DNA of 38,521 nt, from NCBI GenBank assembly GCA_903825395.1, contig CAIKAF010000008.1, positions 1 through 38,521 of the forward strand. The letters are read 5' to 3'. A program made the position numbers and the translations under genes. The DNA comes from an uncultured Flavobacteriales bacterium. GTDB lineage: Bacteria; Bacteroidota; Bacteroidia; CAIKAF01. Below are positions 114 to 36,353 of this stretch, one piece after another; within the stretch, counting starts at the first letter, position 1; every line of letters begins with the position of its first letter. The notes under the pieces are model-generated. The model had not been told where the DNA came from and did not search any database. It worked only from the letters and a program-made list of their open reading frames with translations.

Positions 114-129
114 AACCTGTCCTAAAAAT

Positions 130-265
130 GGGGTGGTTACAGTTGCCCGCAAGGGTGCCGGCGGGAGGTGGCGCGCAACGAGGAGGCGACGTGAGGAGCC
201 ACCGCAGTACGCTGCCACCCCGACGGCAACCGCGGACAACCTGAGAAAGCCCGTATCCCGCCCAC
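130..265 (-). repeat. Structured 3'-UTR repeat, copy A
   Basis: This is the first and most divergent of four related elements in the window. Read on the minus strand it begins with the family's GGGCGG..TACGGGCTTTC about 20 nt after the stop of the 285-755 gene. The stems are: 142-150 with 232-240 (GTTGTCCGC/GCGGGCAAC in gene sense, one G-U pair), 156-160 with 224-228 (TGCCG/CGGCA) and 167-172 with 214-219 (GGTGGC/GCCACC). The stem sequences differ from those of the other copies but still pair. The short open frames here (for example 49-267 minus) arise from its high GC and are not credible proteins. Confidence 0.85.
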
Positions 266-284
266 AAAAAAATAAATCGAAGAA

Positions 285-755
285 TTAATTTTTATTTCCA
301 ATGAAGTCGGCTAGCAATTTCATTTTATAAAACAGATTCGTGAAGTGCAAGGCGATGTTTGTGTTTTCGATGTTTTTTAGGCTGCCGTAATGCGTTTTCA
401 TGTCGCGCAGTTCGGTGATTTTTGATTCGATATTTTTGAACATCCAATCGGAGGATTTTCCGATATACCGCTTGTTGCGTTGATCAAAAACATGGTGTTT
501 TTCAATTCTTCCTTTTCTAACTTTTGAGAATGGATACTTGTCTTCTAATGCCTTTTCGAATGCCGTGGTTCGCAGCAAGTCCAACAGCGAATCGTAATTC
601 ATTTTTTTGGAAATCTGAGCGGTTTTGAAGGCCTTAATATTTCTCTTCAATTCCCTTATTAGTAAATCCTTGTGCGCTGAATTGTACTTGATGGATTTCT
701 TTAAATCCAATAAAATTTCAGCAATCGGTAAAGCGGCTAGCCAAGAAAAATCCAT
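285..755 (-). CDS. Hypothetical protein, 156 aa
   Basis: I do not recognise the family. The product is 156 residues, basic and mostly helical in appearance, with no signal peptide beyond a short hydrophobic start (MDFSWLAALPIAEILL) and no cysteine. Lys/Arg/Asp-rich segments alternate with leucine-rich ones, which suggests a soluble cytoplasmic helical bundle. No longer frame opposes it, so it is unlikely to be a shadow. The ATG at 755 is chosen because a perfect 14-bp palindrome (769-782) lies just upstream, as expected for a regulated 5' region. The gene stands alone: the EamA gene upstream is 256 nt away on the same strand, and structured repeat copy A follows the stop. Function unknown. 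Confidence 0.6.
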   Translation of the reverse strand: MDFSWLAALPIAEILLDLKKSIKYNSAHKDLLIRELKRNIKAFKTAQISKKMNYDSLLDLLRTTAFEKALEDKYPFSKVRKGRIEKHHVFDQRNKRYIGKSSDWMFKNIESKITELRDMKTHYGSLKNIENTNIALHFTNLFYKMKLLADFIGNKN

Positions 756-12674: not shown

Positions 12675-14594
12675 ATGACCGCTCGCTTTTACATAGTAAT
12701 GCTTTCTATTCTCTCCCTTTGGGGGACATTTTCAGGTATTGCCCAAAGTCAAGAGGTTTTTTTAGAGCTCAAAGGCATTGTAGAAGCAGAAGATGGCCCC
12801 ATTCGCCTTTACATAGAAGTAGGAGAAAAGGGACAACCCAGGCAATTGGTTAAGCTGAAAAAAGATGGTTCATTTTTTATCGAGCTTGATTTAAACATGG
12901 ACTATGAGTTTTATGTCCGCGCAGACGGTTATCAACCCCAGCTCGTTAAGTTAAATACCCGCACTTCTGATGAAACGATTGAAGCGGGACTAAAACCCTT
13001 GGATTTCAATATTTTCATGGCTAAGATTCCCGAGAAGCTAATGAAGGAAAAGGAGGAAGATGATAAAGAGAATCCCAATCCCGAAGAAATTCAACCGGTA
13101 GTTTCGAATGTGGCCTTCAACAAGGAAACAGGTCAGTTTGCTTTTAAAGAAGAGTATATGAAAAGCGTGGAAGGTCAAAAAAAGGCCGCAGAGGAGCGCA
13201 AAACACAACAAATCGCACAATATGAAAATCGCTTAGCCGAAAAAGAAGCACTAAAGGAATCAGCGGAAAAAAATAAGGAGGCTGCAGCAGAACGCCAGCG
13301 CGCCCAAGAAGAGGCACGACTCAAAGAGAAACAAATACAAGATTCCCTCCTAGCTGTTCGACGAGCAGAACAAGCCAAACGCGATGCCGAACTGGCCGAG
13401 GTAGCCCGACAACGAGAACAGGAGGCGAAAAAAGAAAAACAACGGCTTGATTCCATCCAGGCAGCCAACCTAAGGGCCATTGAGGAAAAAAGACTGAGGC
13501 AAAAAGATTCTTTAGCCGCCGTTGCAGCAGCCCAAGCAGATAAATTGGAACGAGCCAGATTGGAGGCTCAAAGAATAAAGGATTCAGTTGATAACGCCCG
13601 AATTCAAGAACAAGCTCGAATCGATGCCCTAATTGCAGCCAAGGCCGAAGAAAAACGAATTCGTGAAAACATGGAAAGAGCCCGGCAAGATTCTCTAGCT
13701 CAAGTAAGGGCCGCTGAGAATTTGGCTCAAAAGAGAAAAGAAGAACAATTGAGAATCGAAGAACAACGGCAACGTGCCATTCAAGATTCTACAGCTTTTG
13801 CTCTTCTTCAAAAAAAACAGAATCAAGAGGCCGCTTCTGCCCAACAGCAAAAATTGAAACAAGACTCGATAGCCCTAGCTAAAGAGCGACAGGCTATTGC
13901 AGAACGAGAAAAGCAGCGATTCTACGATCAGCAAGCAGCCAAAGAGCGAGACTCCATTTTGCAGGCTCAGGCTGAACAAGCAAAACGAATGGCTGCCGAA
14001 AAAAATCGACTTCAAGCATTAGCTAAGGCTCGACAAGATTCAATTGACCAAGTAAAACGCGAGGAACTACGCCGAATTGAAGCCCAACAAGCCCAAGAAG
14101 AAAAGGCCGAAAGAGCACGCCAAGATTCCCTAATACAAGAAAGAATTGAGCAAAAACGGAAAGAAGACGAACAACGACGGGTGTTGGCCTTAAAGGCTCA
14201 AGCACGCCAAGATTCCCTTGCAAAAGCTATACAACAAAAACGGGAATTGGAATTGCGCGAGGAACAACTAAGAAAAGCAGAAGCCGCCCGCCAAGCCGAA
14301 GAAACTCTAAAGGCAAAGAATGCACAGGAAGATCAAAAAATCGACCCAGCTAAAAAACGGATTATAGATAACAACATCCGGATTTTCAAAACAGCCGAAG
14401 AACGGTCAGAGGTCGTTTCTACTAGCGAACGAGCCGCCCTCATCAGCAGGCTTGTTGTGACCTTGAAAAAGTACGATATGGAAGAACTTGAGGCTTCAGA
14501 TGCCTATGGCTTTATCAATTTTGGAGATGGATCTGGAAACATCGAAGTAAGCGAAAAGGAATTCTACCGCTATCGGCGCTTATTTTTCCGCTAG
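12675..14594 (+). CDS. Exported long coiled-coil protein with 29-residue period
   Basis: 639 residues. A signal peptide (1-24) leads to a small beta-rich domain (about 27-115: VFLELKGIVEAEDGPIRLYI) that resembles the carboxypeptidase-regulatory/SprB-like folds fused to Bacteroidota envelope proteins. Residues 160-550 are a highly charged uninterrupted helix rich in E, K, R, Q and A, punctuated by a D-S motif (RQDSL-type). Eleven D-S motifs occur; the last five Asp are at 397, 426, 455, 484 and 513, exactly 29 apart. A conserved-looking C-terminal domain follows (560-639, IIDNNIRIFKTAEERSEV to EFYRYRRLFFR). I do not recognise the whole protein. It could be a long periplasmic spacer or a filament-forming scaffold. 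A palindromic repeat array begins 17 nt after its stop. Confidence 0.8.
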   Translation: MTARFYIVMLSILSLWGTFSGIAQSQEVFLELKGIVEAEDGPIRLYIEVGEKGQPRQLVKLKKDGSFFIELDLNMDYEFYVRADGYQPQLVKLNTRTSDETIEAGLKPLDFNIFMAKIPEKLMKEKEEDDKENPNPEEIQPVVSNVAFNKETGQFAFKEEYMKSVEGQKKAAEERKTQQIAQYENRLAEKEALKESAEKNKEAAAERQRAQEEARLKEKQIQDSLLAVRRAEQAKRDAELAEVARQREQEAKKEKQRLDSIQAANLRAIEEKRLRQKDSLAAVAAAQADKLERARLEAQRIKDSVDNARIQEQARIDALIAAKAEEKRIRENMERARQDSLAQVRAAENLAQKRKEEQLRIEEQRQRAIQDSTAFALLQKKQNQEAASAQQQKLKQDSIALAKERQAIAEREKQRFYDQQAAKERDSILQAQAEQAKRMAAEKNRLQALAKARQDSIDQVKREELRRIEAQQAQEEKAERARQDSLIQERIEQKRKEDEQRRVLALKAQARQDSLAKAIQQKRELELREEQLRKAEAARQAEETLKAKNAQEDQKIDPAKKRIIDNNIRIFKTAEERSEVVSTSERAALISRLVVTLKKYDMEELEASDAYGFINFGDGSGNIEVSEKEFYRYRRLFFR

Positions 14595-14611
14595 CCCCTC
14601 GCCCCGTCTTT

Positions 14612-14975
14612 AATCCCCATGGCCCCGTACGGACGGACAATCGTCCGTCCAACGTTTTAAAACCCCATGCCCCGTACGGACGGACAATCGTCCGTCCATA
14701 CGATCCCCGTGGCCCCGTATGTGCGGTTATGAATCCCCATGCCCCCGTATGGACGGTTATGAATCCCCATGGCCCCGTATTAAATCCCCGTGCCCCGTAA
14801 GGACGGACAATTGTCCGTCCTACAATCCCCATGCCCCCGTAAGGACGGACAATTGTCCGTCCATACGATCCCCGTGGTCCCGTATTAAATCCCCATGCCC
14901 CCGTACGGACGGACAATTGTCCGTCCCCACGTTTTAAATCCCCATGGCCCCGTACGGACGGACAATTGTCCGTCC
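14612..14975. repeat. Ten-unit direct repeat array with six 20-bp palindromes
   Basis: The 416-nt gap between the coiled-coil and kinase genes is filled by ten copies of AATCCCC(A/G)TG(G/C)CCCCGTA. Six are followed by a 20-bp palindrome, at 14631-14650, 14678-14697, 14801-14820, 14843-14862, 14907-14926 and 14956-14975. The last four read GGACGGACAATTGTCCGTCC, perfectly symmetric; the first two have ATCG at the centre. Two units carry degenerate GTGCGGTTATG or GGACGGTTATG instead of a palindrome, and two have only TTA. Each palindrome can fold as an 8-bp stem with an AATT or AATC loop. The long minus-strand open frame across it (14515-14916) is a repeat artefact. Confidence 0.95.
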
Positions 14976-14987
14976 CTACTTTTTTTT
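14956..14987 (+). terminator. Last array palindrome followed by T-run
   Basis: The final palindrome (8-bp stem, AATT loop) is followed by CTAC and a run of eight T (14980-14987), so it can act as an intrinsic terminator of the coiled-coil gene or shield the histidine kinase gene from readthrough. The 4-nt gap before the Ts makes it less than ideal. Confidence 0.45.
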
Positions 14988-15010
14988 ATTACATTTAATC
15001 CCTCGACCCC

Positions 15011-17029
15011 ATGAAAAATCCCATTTTTCTAATTATCGCCATAATAGGTGTTGCCCTAAACGGATTTGGTCAATCCGTTGATAATCATACGAATGTAGAT
15101 GCGTGGGCAACCAAAATGCAAAATTGGATTGTCGAACATCCGGACGATAAATCTGTCCTGATTGATTTGGATAAATTTGGACAGGAGGCTTTACGGAAGA
15201 ACGACTCCCTTTCAATGATGCATTTCTACCGCCTAAAAAGTCATTATTTCCACTCCATTCAACGCTACCAAGATGCATTGAAATATGCACTCATGGGCGT
15301 ACAGTTGAACCATAACCTAAACAGTCAACTTCATTTCCAACTGCTGTTGGATGTGGTTTCTAATTATTGGAATTTAGGAGAACACGCTGCGGCTATTCCT
15401 TACCTTATTCAAGGTGAAAATAGAATTTCAAACCCTGAAATAAACGAGTTTTCCAAGGCGATTTTTTACAATTTCATGGGGCAATATCATTACAATGAAT
15501 ATGCCAGTGAAACAGCATTAATGTTTTTCAAGAGGGGCGATAGCCTCTTGACCCTTAATCCCGACTTTATTGAACTTCATTTTATTTGGCAACAAAACTT
15601 TAAGTCCAATATAGGTCTTTGTTTAATGGATTTAAAGCGGTTTTCGGAAGCAGAAGCAAACTTTAATCTGGCCTATTCTATTTCCAATTCCATCAACAAT
15701 AAGGCCGCAATGGGCTTTGCCTTAGTCAATAAAGTAATCGCCTCAAGGCATACCTTTCCCGACAGTACATTCGCCCCCATTTTGCAGCGAGCCTTAAATC
15801 TTGTGGAGGGAGATGCGGACAACAATTTGAAATTAACGGTTTTAAGAGAATTGGCTAAGGAATATCTAAAGTACAATCAAGCCGATAGCCTCCGAGCAAT
15901 TTTGCCTAGATTGGAAACCAGTGTCGAATTTATTCCCTCCGGTAAATCTAAAGTTCGCTTTTTATTTTATCTCGCTAAATTTAATCGGTTCCTTGGCGAA
16001 TCAAAAGCTCTAGATTATTTCGATCGGGCTTTGGCTCTAAACGATAGTCTAGCTCTGAATCCTCAAGGCCAAAATTTGCTGCAGCTGGAACGCCAACGCA
16101 ATTTAAACCTTCAGGAGCAAGAAGCAAAGAATTTGGCCGAGCTCAAGGCAGAACAACTTCGGAAAAACTTCCGCCTCACTTCGTTTTTTCTAATGGCAGC
16201 TGTTGGTTTCCTAATCCTGCTTTTGGGGGTATTAATCGCGCTATTCCAAAAAGATCGACGGTTACGAAAGACCTTAAAAACGCTCCGTTGGCAAAATTCC
16301 AATTCCGATACGCTCAACCAACAGCTGCAGCTGTCCATGCAACAAAAAAATCTCCTACTGGGAGCCGTCGCCCACGATCTGCGAAATTTATTGGTGAATG
16401 TCAATCAAGTTTCTGAAATGATGATTAAGCGGGAACTGGAAAACAATCCTACGTTTAAAGACAGAATGATTAAATTAATGGAACGCTCCTCTCGACTTGG
16501 AATGCATACCATTGAAGATTTAATCGATGGCGTTCAGCCCGAAGGCCGGCAAAGGCTAAGGCTTGAAGCCATTAATCCTGCTGATTTAATCGATTTTATC
16601 ACAGATTTGCTCTCCTTCAAAGCCGAAAAAAAGGGAATTACCTTGCAAATTAATAAGGAGCCGGGCACAGTGTATTTGTATGCCGATCGAGATAAACTGA
16701 ATAGGGCATTGATTAATTTACTCGATAATGCCATCAAATTCAGTCCAATAGATGAAGAGGTGCATGTCGGTTTTCATTCTTCCGATGAATTTTTAATTTT
16801 CGAAATCACAGACCTAGGTAAAGGTCTGCATCGCAGTCGCTTCACGCAAGGCGAACATCCGTTTACCGATATTGGCGAAGCAGGAACGCTCGGCGAACCA
16901 AGCACCGGTCTAGGCCTGTTCATCGTTAGAAAAATTGCCGAATTGCACCTAGGCTCATTCAATTTACGCTCTGAAGAAGGCAAAGGCACAACCGCAACAT
17001 TGCTAATTTCCCGAAATTTAAGGGCTTAG
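15011..17029 (+). CDS. TPR-containing sensor histidine kinase
   Basis: Membrane sensor kinase, 672 residues. Signal peptide (1-21), a periplasmic helical TPR-type region (about 55-345), a coiled coil (about 355-385), one transmembrane helix (about 389-412, SFFLMAAVGFLILLLGVLIALF), then the transmitter. H-box is AHDLRN with phospho-acceptor His455, N-box LLDNAIKF with Asn573, G1 box DLGKG (601-605) and G2 box GLGLFIV (633-639). The layout is the common Bacteroidota TPR-HK type. No response regulator is encoded in the window, so it is an orphan. It follows the palindromic array and a TACATTTA box near 14990. Structured repeat copy B starts 5 nt after its stop. Ligand unknown. Confidence 0.93.
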   Translation: MKNPIFLIIAIIGVALNGFGQSVDNHTNVDAWATKMQNWIVEHPDDKSVLIDLDKFGQEALRKNDSLSMMHFYRLKSHYFHSIQRYQDALKYALMGVQLNHNLNSQLHFQLLLDVVSNYWNLGEHAAAIPYLIQGENRISNPEINEFSKAIFYNFMGQYHYNEYASETALMFFKRGDSLLTLNPDFIELHFIWQQNFKSNIGLCLMDLKRFSEAEANFNLAYSISNSINNKAAMGFALVNKVIASRHTFPDSTFAPILQRALNLVEGDADNNLKLTVLRELAKEYLKYNQADSLRAILPRLETSVEFIPSGKSKVRFLFYLAKFNRFLGESKALDYFDRALALNDSLALNPQGQNLLQLERQRNLNLQEQEAKNLAELKAEQLRKNFRLTSFFLMAAVGFLILLLGVLIALFQKDRRLRKTLKTLRWQNSNSDTLNQQLQLSMQQKNLLLGAVAHDLRNLLVNVNQVSEMMIKRELENNPTFKDRMIKLMERSSRLGMHTIEDLIDGVQPEGRQRLRLEAINPADLIDFITDLLSFKAEKKGITLQINKEPGTVYLYADRDKLNRALINLLDNAIKFSPIDEEVHVGFHSSDEFLIFEITDLGKGLHRSRFTQGEHPFTDIGEAGTLGEPSTGLGLFIVRKIAELHLGSFNLRSEEGKGTTATLLISRNLRA

Positions 17030-17033
17030 TGTA

Positions 17034-17175
17034 GGGCGGCTTACGGGCTTTCACCGGTTGTCCGCGCTGCATGACCAATGGCCCAGCCGCTTTGCGCGGG
17101 CTCCCAAGGTCGCCTGCGCAGCTGGCGGGCCCTAGGCCATGCCGCTTGCGGGCAACCGCGTTCAATCCCTGCCGC
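17034..17175 (+). repeat. Structured 3'-UTR repeat, copy B
   Basis: Begins 5 nt after the kinase stop, in the same sense. Stems: 17055-17065 with 17148-17158 (CGGTTGTCCGC/GCGGGCAACCG, 11 bp with one G-U), 17069-17073 with 17138-17142 (GCATG/CATGC) extended towards GGCCC/GGGCC, and an inner stem GCGCGGGC/GCCTGCGC closing a loop. It has changed bases on both sides of the inner stem compared with copies C and D. It lies between convergent genes. Confidence 0.9.
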
Positions 17176-17197
17176 TCACCCCAAATCGGCCTGTTTT

Positions 17198-17680
17198 TTA
17201 AAATTGATTTATAGTCCAACCCCCACGGGCGTTTTTAAACGCCAATCCCTGTATATGGTCTAAAAATGGATTGTAGGCCTGTTGCTGCGAAATAAACAGC
17301 GCCGAAATCGGCCGAATTTCTGAACCATATACGGCAAAATCTAGAGCCGAGGGAGCCGAAAATGAAACATCGGCTTCTGGAAACCAAGCCAACCGAATAT
17401 ATTCCTTATGAGAATAATGGATTCGATTTAACCAAATTTGCAACGGTCCCAGCTCCTTGGGAACAATCCAAATCAAATACTTGAATGGCAATATTTGGGT
17501 TGGATGCCGAAAACGATGAAAAGGAATTTGTTGACCCAAAGCTAAACCCTCTAGCTCATCTAAATATGAGCAGGTTTTGCCAGGTAATAATGAAATGGCA
17601 TTGATACCGGAAACAATCATAACAAGGCAATCTACGAAGAAATTTCGTCCAAAGTACCTTCCTTCATGACCTTGCTCCAT
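17198..17680 (-). CDS. Hypothetical protein, 160 aa
   Basis: I do not recognise the family. The ATG at 17680 gives 160 residues; a second ATG at 17620 (MIVSGINAIS) would give 140. The product is neutral to basic, aromatic- and proline-rich (RFRHPTQILPFKYLIWIVPKELG), with no signal peptide and two cysteines. It looks like a soluble alpha/beta protein. No larger frame lies opposite, which supports a real gene. It is convergent with the histidine kinase, with repeat copy B between them, and divergent from the rhodanese gene across a 159-nt gap that holds no other feature I can see except the rhodanese promoter-like box. Confidence 0.55.
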   Translation of the reverse strand: MEQGHEGRYFGRNFFVDCLVMIVSGINAISLLPGKTCSYLDELEGLALGQQIPFHRFRHPTQILPFKYLIWIVPKELGPLQIWLNRIHYSHKEYIRLAWFPEADVSFSAPSALDFAVYGSEIRPISALFISQQQAYNPFLDHIQGLAFKNARGGWTINQF

Positions 17681-32488: not shown

Positions 32489-32688
32489 TCCCAAAGCAAA
32501 AAATATTTAAAGGTTAGGAGATTAAAGCGGTTTATACCTAAATTTAGTATGTTCTGCGAAGATACGGGTTCTAAAAAGAAATCGCAAGGGCAACCGCTCA
32601 TGTTTTTTTGTTTTTCTTTCAGATTTCTAGAATTGGGGGCAGAACGTTCAACGCCATGCGCTGCGGTTCTCCTTTCCCTGTGGCCCGC

Positions 32689-32830
32689 GGGCGGGATTGA
32701 AGAGGGTTGCCCGCAAGGGGGGCAGTGCCTGGCCCGCGTGGCGCGGAGGCGACTTTAGGAGCCACCGCAAGCCCGCTGGGCCAGCCACTGCCCACCGCGG
32801 ACAACCCCTGAAAGCCCGGTACCCGCCCCA
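32689..32830 (-). repeat. Structured 3'-UTR repeat, copy C
   Basis: In minus sense it starts 16 nt after the htrA stop. Stems: 32704-32714 with 32797-32807 (GGGTTGTCCGC/GCGGGCAACCC in gene sense, 11 bp, one G-U), 32721-32727 with 32786-32792 (GGCAGTG/CACTGCC), then TGGCCC/GGGCCA, and the inner GCGGTGGC/GCCTCCGC around UCCUAAAGUC. It separates htrA from rpoD. Confidence 0.9.
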
Positions 32831-36210: not shown

Positions 36211-36353
36211 GGGCGGCTGCCGGGCTTTCAGGCTTTGTCCGCGGTGGCCGGAAGGCTGGCCCAGCGGGCTTGCGGTGGCTCCTAAAGTCGCCTCCGCGCC
36301 GCGCGGGCCAGGCTCCGGCCCCCTTGCGGGCAAAGCTCTTCAATCCCTGCCGC
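36211..36353 (+). repeat. Structured 3'-UTR repeat, copy D
   Basis: Starts about 32 nt after the mltG stop in the same sense. Stems: 36232-36242 with 36326-36336 (GCTTTGTCCGC/GCGGGCAAAGC, 11 bp, one G-U), 36246-36252 with 36314-36320 (GGCCGGA/TCCGGCC), TGGCCC/GGGCCA, and the inner GCGGTGGC/GCCTCCGC. Its core is nearly identical to copy C, but its two outer stems differ on both strands. Confidence 0.92.

Follow-up and report, generated by a model that had tools for sequence, protein, structure and literature searches.

Known intergenic palindromes and the repeat of the window

The closest described counterparts of the repeat analyzed here are the REP/BIME sequences of Proteobacteria and the Flavo-1 motif of Bacteroidetes. 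REP/BIME are high-copy intergenic palindromes of 20-40 nt, tagged with GTAG or CGTC, which occur mostly in unidirectional and convergent gaps, often near stop codons, and form inverted doublets (PMC3733652). Those of E. coli that lie at most 15 nt from a stop codon are reported, in work cited in PMC12306157, to stall ribosomes. Flavo-1 (RF01705), with many dispersed copies and typically short A/T inner stems, was catalogued in 2010 among probable RNAs, as one that is not cis-regulatory (Weinberg et al. 2010, PMC2864571), and in the transcriptome of F. psychrophilum its copies were sense or antisense to transcribed regions without preference, many of them lying outside such regions (PMC9723704). 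A great many Bacteroidota genomes carry annotations of it as an sRNA. A literature search with the repeat's own sequence returned nothing relevant, and nothing on the 142-nt family was found in the literature on intergenic repeats of Bacteroidetes.

The window, that is, the whole stretch of 38,521 nt that was analyzed, contains four copies of one GC-rich hairpin of 142 nt. The copies, and the flanks of copy 2, are as follows:

123-263, minus strand: copy 1, 21 nt past the stop codon of the gene at 285-755 (minus strand)
17011-17033, plus strand: 5' flank of copy 2, the last ~17 nt T/G-rich and nearly C-free across copies
17034-17175, plus strand: copy 2, 4 nt past the histidine kinase stop codon at 17029
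17176-17197, plus strand: 3' flank of copy 2, the first ~20 nt A/C-rich and low in T across copies, with no U-tract
32687-32828, minus strand: copy 3, 17 nt past the HtrA-like protease gene and upstream of an RpoD-like sigma factor gene
36211-36353, plus strand: copy 4, 32 nt past the MltG/YceG gene and ~640 nt before the 16S rRNA

Pfam searches confirmed the identity of three adjoining genes, with HATPase_c in the histidine kinase, Trypsin_2 plus PDZ in the HtrA-like protease and YceG in MltG. The window copies give folds much more stable than those of shuffled sequence (z from -3.4 to -7.4), as do their reverse complements, both strands having near-equal energy. Copy 1 has a degenerate 3' terminus, its recognisable part extending from about 139 to 262, and its score of 86.5 bits is the lowest among the 150 genomic matches listed. 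The sequence-only reading had described four elements, each closely after a stop codon and in the sense of the gene before it, and in the window this is borne out (21, 4, 17 and 32 nt). The agreement in orientation of all four is also true, but it carries less weight than was claimed for it: copy 2 occupies a convergent gap, with the stop codon of the gene at 17198-17680 (minus strand) 22 nt from its other end, and would therefore follow a stop in either orientation, so that three informative copies are left.

A genome-wide family of long hairpins

A covariance model (R1) built from 43 copies was run on the 2.6-Mb Flavobacteriales genome (G000) and gave at least 150 matches; when copies were counted from the sequence stretches around them, at least 152 scored above 60 bits. 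Throughout the genome they adjoin unrelated genes. The family consensus reads GGGCGGCTGnCGGGCTTTCACnGGTTGTCCGCGG...CCTTGCGGGCAACC..TTCAATCCCTGCCGC and forms an imperfect hairpin with the conserved ends GGGCGGC..CGGGCTTTC and TTCAATCCCTGCCGC. Its consensus structure is a single long stem of 49 pairs, 27 of which show changes on both sides. Stem cells are paired in 97.2% of cases, and there are 168 double changes, a number reached by none of 500 shuffles (mean 55). All other measures of covariation were likewise above 500 of 500 shuffles and above every slid control. Covariation of this RNA-like kind is by itself no proof of RNA. Paralogous copies have a median identity of 74%, and only two paralogue pairs exceed 97%.

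Copies that lie a few hundred bases apart (at L035, L107, L152, L116 and others) form inverted doublets with their 3' ends inward. An extended basal stem made of the T/G-rich and A/C-rich flanks was considered and discarded, since a copy's own flanks pair no better than swapped ones (12.9 vs 13.6). The same happened to a KOPS- or Chi-like polarity, as strands are mixed along the contigs (83 plus and 67 minus, with neighbours in all combinations). Rfam matches to microRNA families were dismissed as chance matches to a long hairpin.

Comparison with Flavo-1 and REP/BIME

Rfam searches of the window at the families' own cut-offs matched the 16S rRNA alone and gave no RF01705. The window copies stayed below the Flavo-1 gathering cut-off of 42 bits, copy 4 remaining unmatched even with lax filters. 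The best RF01705 match in G000 reaches 27.6 bits and belongs to another, short locus (G000:C25:2045-2112, L069:2045-2112), a Flavo-1-like element separate from the 142-nt family. A relationship between both families is nevertheless shown through intermediate copies. Copy L173 of genome G014 is matched at full length by both R1 (44.3 bits, E 5e-7) and RF01705 (32.3 bits, E 2.5e-5); the two matches share their coordinates and are on opposite strands. The hairpin core is the same but lies on the opposite strand, where GATTGAAGCGG..GGAAAGC of Flavo-1 equals GGGCTTTC..TTCAATCCC of the element. In addition, the G000 copies have the Flavo-1 ends GGGCTNTC and CNATCCCT with co-varying 5' and 3' middle bases. 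In 22 of 39 relatives RF01705 itself has matches, which exceed the cut-off in 8; the 14 control genomes have none. The end pattern was present in 133 of 295 genomes of the class, far above the reversed-pattern control, with 115 copies in G056. Three genomes (G055, G146 and G201) carry a variant with the ends GGGCTNTC/CNATCCCT and another inner stem, CTCGCTTTTTGCCG..GGCAAAAGAGCTCAAACA.

Both Flavo-1 and the present family have many dispersed copies in Bacteroidetes. The window element differs in being 142 nt long and GC-rich, in its long covarying inner stem in place of short A/T stems, and in the reversal of the annotated strand. Judged by these sequence comparisons, it is best described as an outlying, elongated, sub-threshold relative of Flavo-1 and not as a formal member.

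The likeness to REP/BIME is one of distribution. The element is intergenic and enriched between convergent or unidirectional genes (121 of 144 copies), it often lies near stops, and it too forms inverted doublets. Yet it is much longer than the REP units, belongs to a different phylum and needs no RAYT. Within 15 nt of the hairpin foot the tag GTAG was present in 23 of 150 copies, about the estimated chance level, and CGTC in 1 of 150, so the REP foot tags are not a feature of this family.

Position and orientation relative to genes

With gene ends taken from a simple codon-usage gene caller, 144 copies in G000 have genes on both sides: 55 are in convergent gaps, 36 are in tandem gaps in gene sense, 30 are in tandem gaps in antisense and 23 are between divergent genes. 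Orientation is readable only from the tandem pairs, and in these it was random. The sense to antisense ratio was 36:30 in G000 (p = 0.54), 6:8 in the related genomes G001/G005 and 7:9 in G056, which belongs to a distant genus. That the element always stands in gene sense, as the window had suggested, thus does not extend to a general rule, and the 23 divergent copies point the same way. Closeness to stop codons, in turn, proved to be genome-wide. Where a gene reads towards the copy, the 5' end lies at a median of 22 nt past the stop (5th-90th percentile 7-62 nt), at most 15 nt away in 30 of 97 copies, and in 42 of 55 convergent gaps it is closer to the stop of the sense gene. Where the neighbour is divergently oriented, its start codon lies a median of 89 nt from the 5' end; distances from the 3' end are longer and looser, 73 nt to stops and 242 nt to starts. 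The tight distance between element and stop is real, whereas the gene-sense orientation rule, genome-wide, is not.

These data bear on the 3'-UTR role first proposed for the repeat, in which a gene-sense RNA would form the transcript end, protect the mRNA or release a small RNA. The four copies of the window and the anchoring of the 5' end to stops, that of the sense gene above all, agree with it. The tandem counts do not, the strand given to Flavo-1 in Rfam is the opposite one, and no wobble signature marks the gene-sense strand (see below), all of which makes such an RNA very improbable. What survives of the general proposal is a structured, repeated element next to unrelated genes; the strand-specific, gene-sense part of it does not.

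A strand-neutral version fares better. At least one gene reads into 121 of the 144 copies, and any mRNA that does so would end in a hairpin of ~65 bp, which could block 3' exonucleases, slow the last ribosomes or be cleaved by RNase III; orientation would be irrelevant because both strands fold, with near-equal energy. The tight spacing of 5' ends behind stops, with almost a third of the copies at 15 nt or less, is the expectation for a role in the upstream mRNA and a counterpoint to any reading of the element as DNA. On the other side, no gene reads into the 23 divergent copies, and six to seven copies lie beyond the U-tract of a strong terminator and so are probably outside the mRNA. We regard this RNA hairpin as rather unlikely.

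On a circular chromosome convergent and divergent gaps are equally many, and the copies favour the former by 55:23 (p = 4e-4). This enrichment and a stable GC-rich hairpin downstream of genes, the latter a trait of intrinsic terminators too, favour a terminator, and a transcript-end role of that kind had been part of the sequence-only reading. However, neither strand has a U-tract behind the hairpin: the 10 nt that follow it contain a mean of 1.4 T on the plus strand and 1.6 on the minus strand, with maxima of 3 and 5. The T-rich, nearly C-free tract sits ahead of the hairpin instead and is alike beside stops and starts (T 0.53 vs 0.52). As a general account, this tract was rejected as the U-tract of a terminator belonging to the upstream gene, because of its equal T content near starts, although six to seven copies do come immediately behind the U-tract of a strong, ordinary intrinsic terminator. 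The element is not a standard intrinsic terminator, and termination in one or both directions is scarcely credible as its function.

Wobble pairs and the selected form

The stem TTGTCCGC/GCGGGCAA contains a G-U pair that had been taken to name the RNA strand. This T.G in TTGTCC/GGGCAA is a single fixed position of the family; in the remainder of the stem, G-U pairs are as infrequent as A-C pairs, whichever strand is transcribed, and the argument for one RNA strand is not supported. In tandem gaps, copies in sense orientation have 4 G-U and 9 A-C cells and those in antisense 8 G-U and 4 A-C, which, with the small numbers involved (12-13 cells per class), is opposite to the expectation for an RNA read from the gene strand. 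An excess of wobble over A-C on the transcribed strand, as in a structured regulatory RNA, was thus not seen in these few cells. The tRNAs of the same loci, used as a control, had 20 G-U and 0 A-C in 211 pairs, and intrinsic terminators, a weaker control, had 17 G-U vs 8 A-C. At orthologous sites in more distant members of the genus, 51 double Watson-Crick changes were counted vs 13 G-U and 12 A-C. The lack of wobble enrichment on the transcribed strand of tandem copies, and the rarity of wobble relative to tRNA, also speak against the strand-neutral RNA hairpin.

The changes in the stem fit a dyad kept complementary in both DNA strands. Template-switch correction, or a paralogue taking the place of an entire copy, could give the same scarcity of wobble, without selection on the DNA form. 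Our preferred reading, to which we assign a probability of about one half, is that of a REP-like DNA palindrome, neutral as to strand and retained at the edges of transcription units, the selected form of which would be DNA and not RNA.

Constraint, turnover and the mobile-element alternative

The close relative G003 allowed single copies to be compared. In 43 pairs of orthologous copies of G000 and G003, 60 of 6119 sites differ (0.98%), vs 5.5% in the adjoining 60 nt and 3.6-5.9% in the 250-nt flanks, so that the copies evolve about five times more slowly than adjacent DNA. Changes fell on 24 of 4418 Watson-Crick-paired positions and on 35 of 1559 other positions. The low divergence of orthologues does not come from concerted evolution or conversion to a master copy, because paralogues differ more, as their median identity shows. 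Purifying selection appears to act on individual copies, and this strong per-site constraint would make them individually important to the cell.

Forty-six of the 52 G003 copies examined occupy the site of a G000 copy. Those without a counterpart are weak, and their counterparts may be outside the G000 matches listed, which number at least 150. No recent hopping was seen between the two genomes. In the window, copies 2, 3 and 4 are all present in G003. At genus distance the picture is mixed: copy 2 is kept at the same place in G001 and G005 as in G003, the site of copy 3 is empty in G001, G005, G002 and G004, and copy 4 was not found in G001/G005. The orthologous gaps that are missing copies 3 and 4 still have the gene order and the promoter region of the sigma factor gene. 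The family turns over slowly, and absence at a site may represent loss or lack of gain.

This pattern has to be weighed against a non-autonomous mobile element, MITE- or REP-like, persisting mainly as a relic of transposition tolerated at gene ends. Like MITEs, the copies are dispersed, have inverted ends and have no coding capacity; their sites vary within the genus, as copies 3 and 4 illustrate, a turnover that needs some spreading or loss; and the four pairs less than 1.5 kb apart are all inverted (-> <-). Unlike MITEs, they show no signal of target-site duplication, as there was no excess of words common to both flanks (longest shared word 5.23 vs 5.11 in shuffled flanks), no identical recent copies and a slow evolution that relics would not have. 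Most G003 copies moreover remain at G000 sites. Nor do Y1 transposase genes (PF01797) follow copy number, there being one in G000 and none found in G001 or G005, each with at least 148 copies. RAYT-driven spread was therefore rejected, and an associated RAYT, as in REP systems, is not a trait of this family. We consider a mobile relic unlikely, less so than a gene-sense RNA or a terminator.

At one G003 locus (L278, G003:C15:5590) the left flank matches that of the G000 copy L039 and the right flank that of L092, also in G000, which marks either a rearrangement junction or an assembly join near an element.

Proposed role

For the DNA palindrome kept at transcription-unit edges, a mechanism can be outlined. 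Both arms, kept complementary in the two strands alike, would form a hairpin, either in single-stranded DNA or as a cruciform, and a putative host protein would recognise it. The dyad would be maintained on the outer borders of transcription units, a short way past stops or upstream of promoters, in a manner comparable to REP/BIME in Proteobacteria. It might there act as a mark or an insulator between adjacent units, for instance as a site for supercoiling, for the nucleoid or for a nuclease. A transcript that runs through the element would carry a very stable hairpin, and an RNA hairpin at the ends of mRNAs, effective on either strand, is for that matter the main rival of the DNA palindrome.

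Orientation, wobble use, the U-tract analysis and constraint are together reasons to re-read Flavo-1 as a DNA-level palindrome. It is possible, although we advance it only tentatively, that the Flavo-1 superfamily, present in much of Bacteroidia and reaching hundreds of copies in some genomes, is a DNA palindrome under strong purifying selection and not an sRNA, bound at transcription-unit edges by a putative, undescribed host protein, and a separately evolved counterpart of REP/BIME.

The window holds a second palindromic repeat. At 14595-14991, between the gene at 12675-14594 (plus strand) and the histidine kinase gene, lies an array of about seven units, each made of a perfect 20-nt palindrome, GGACGGACAATTGTCCGTCC, and a spacer, CCCCATGGCCCCGTA; it is partly conserved in G003.
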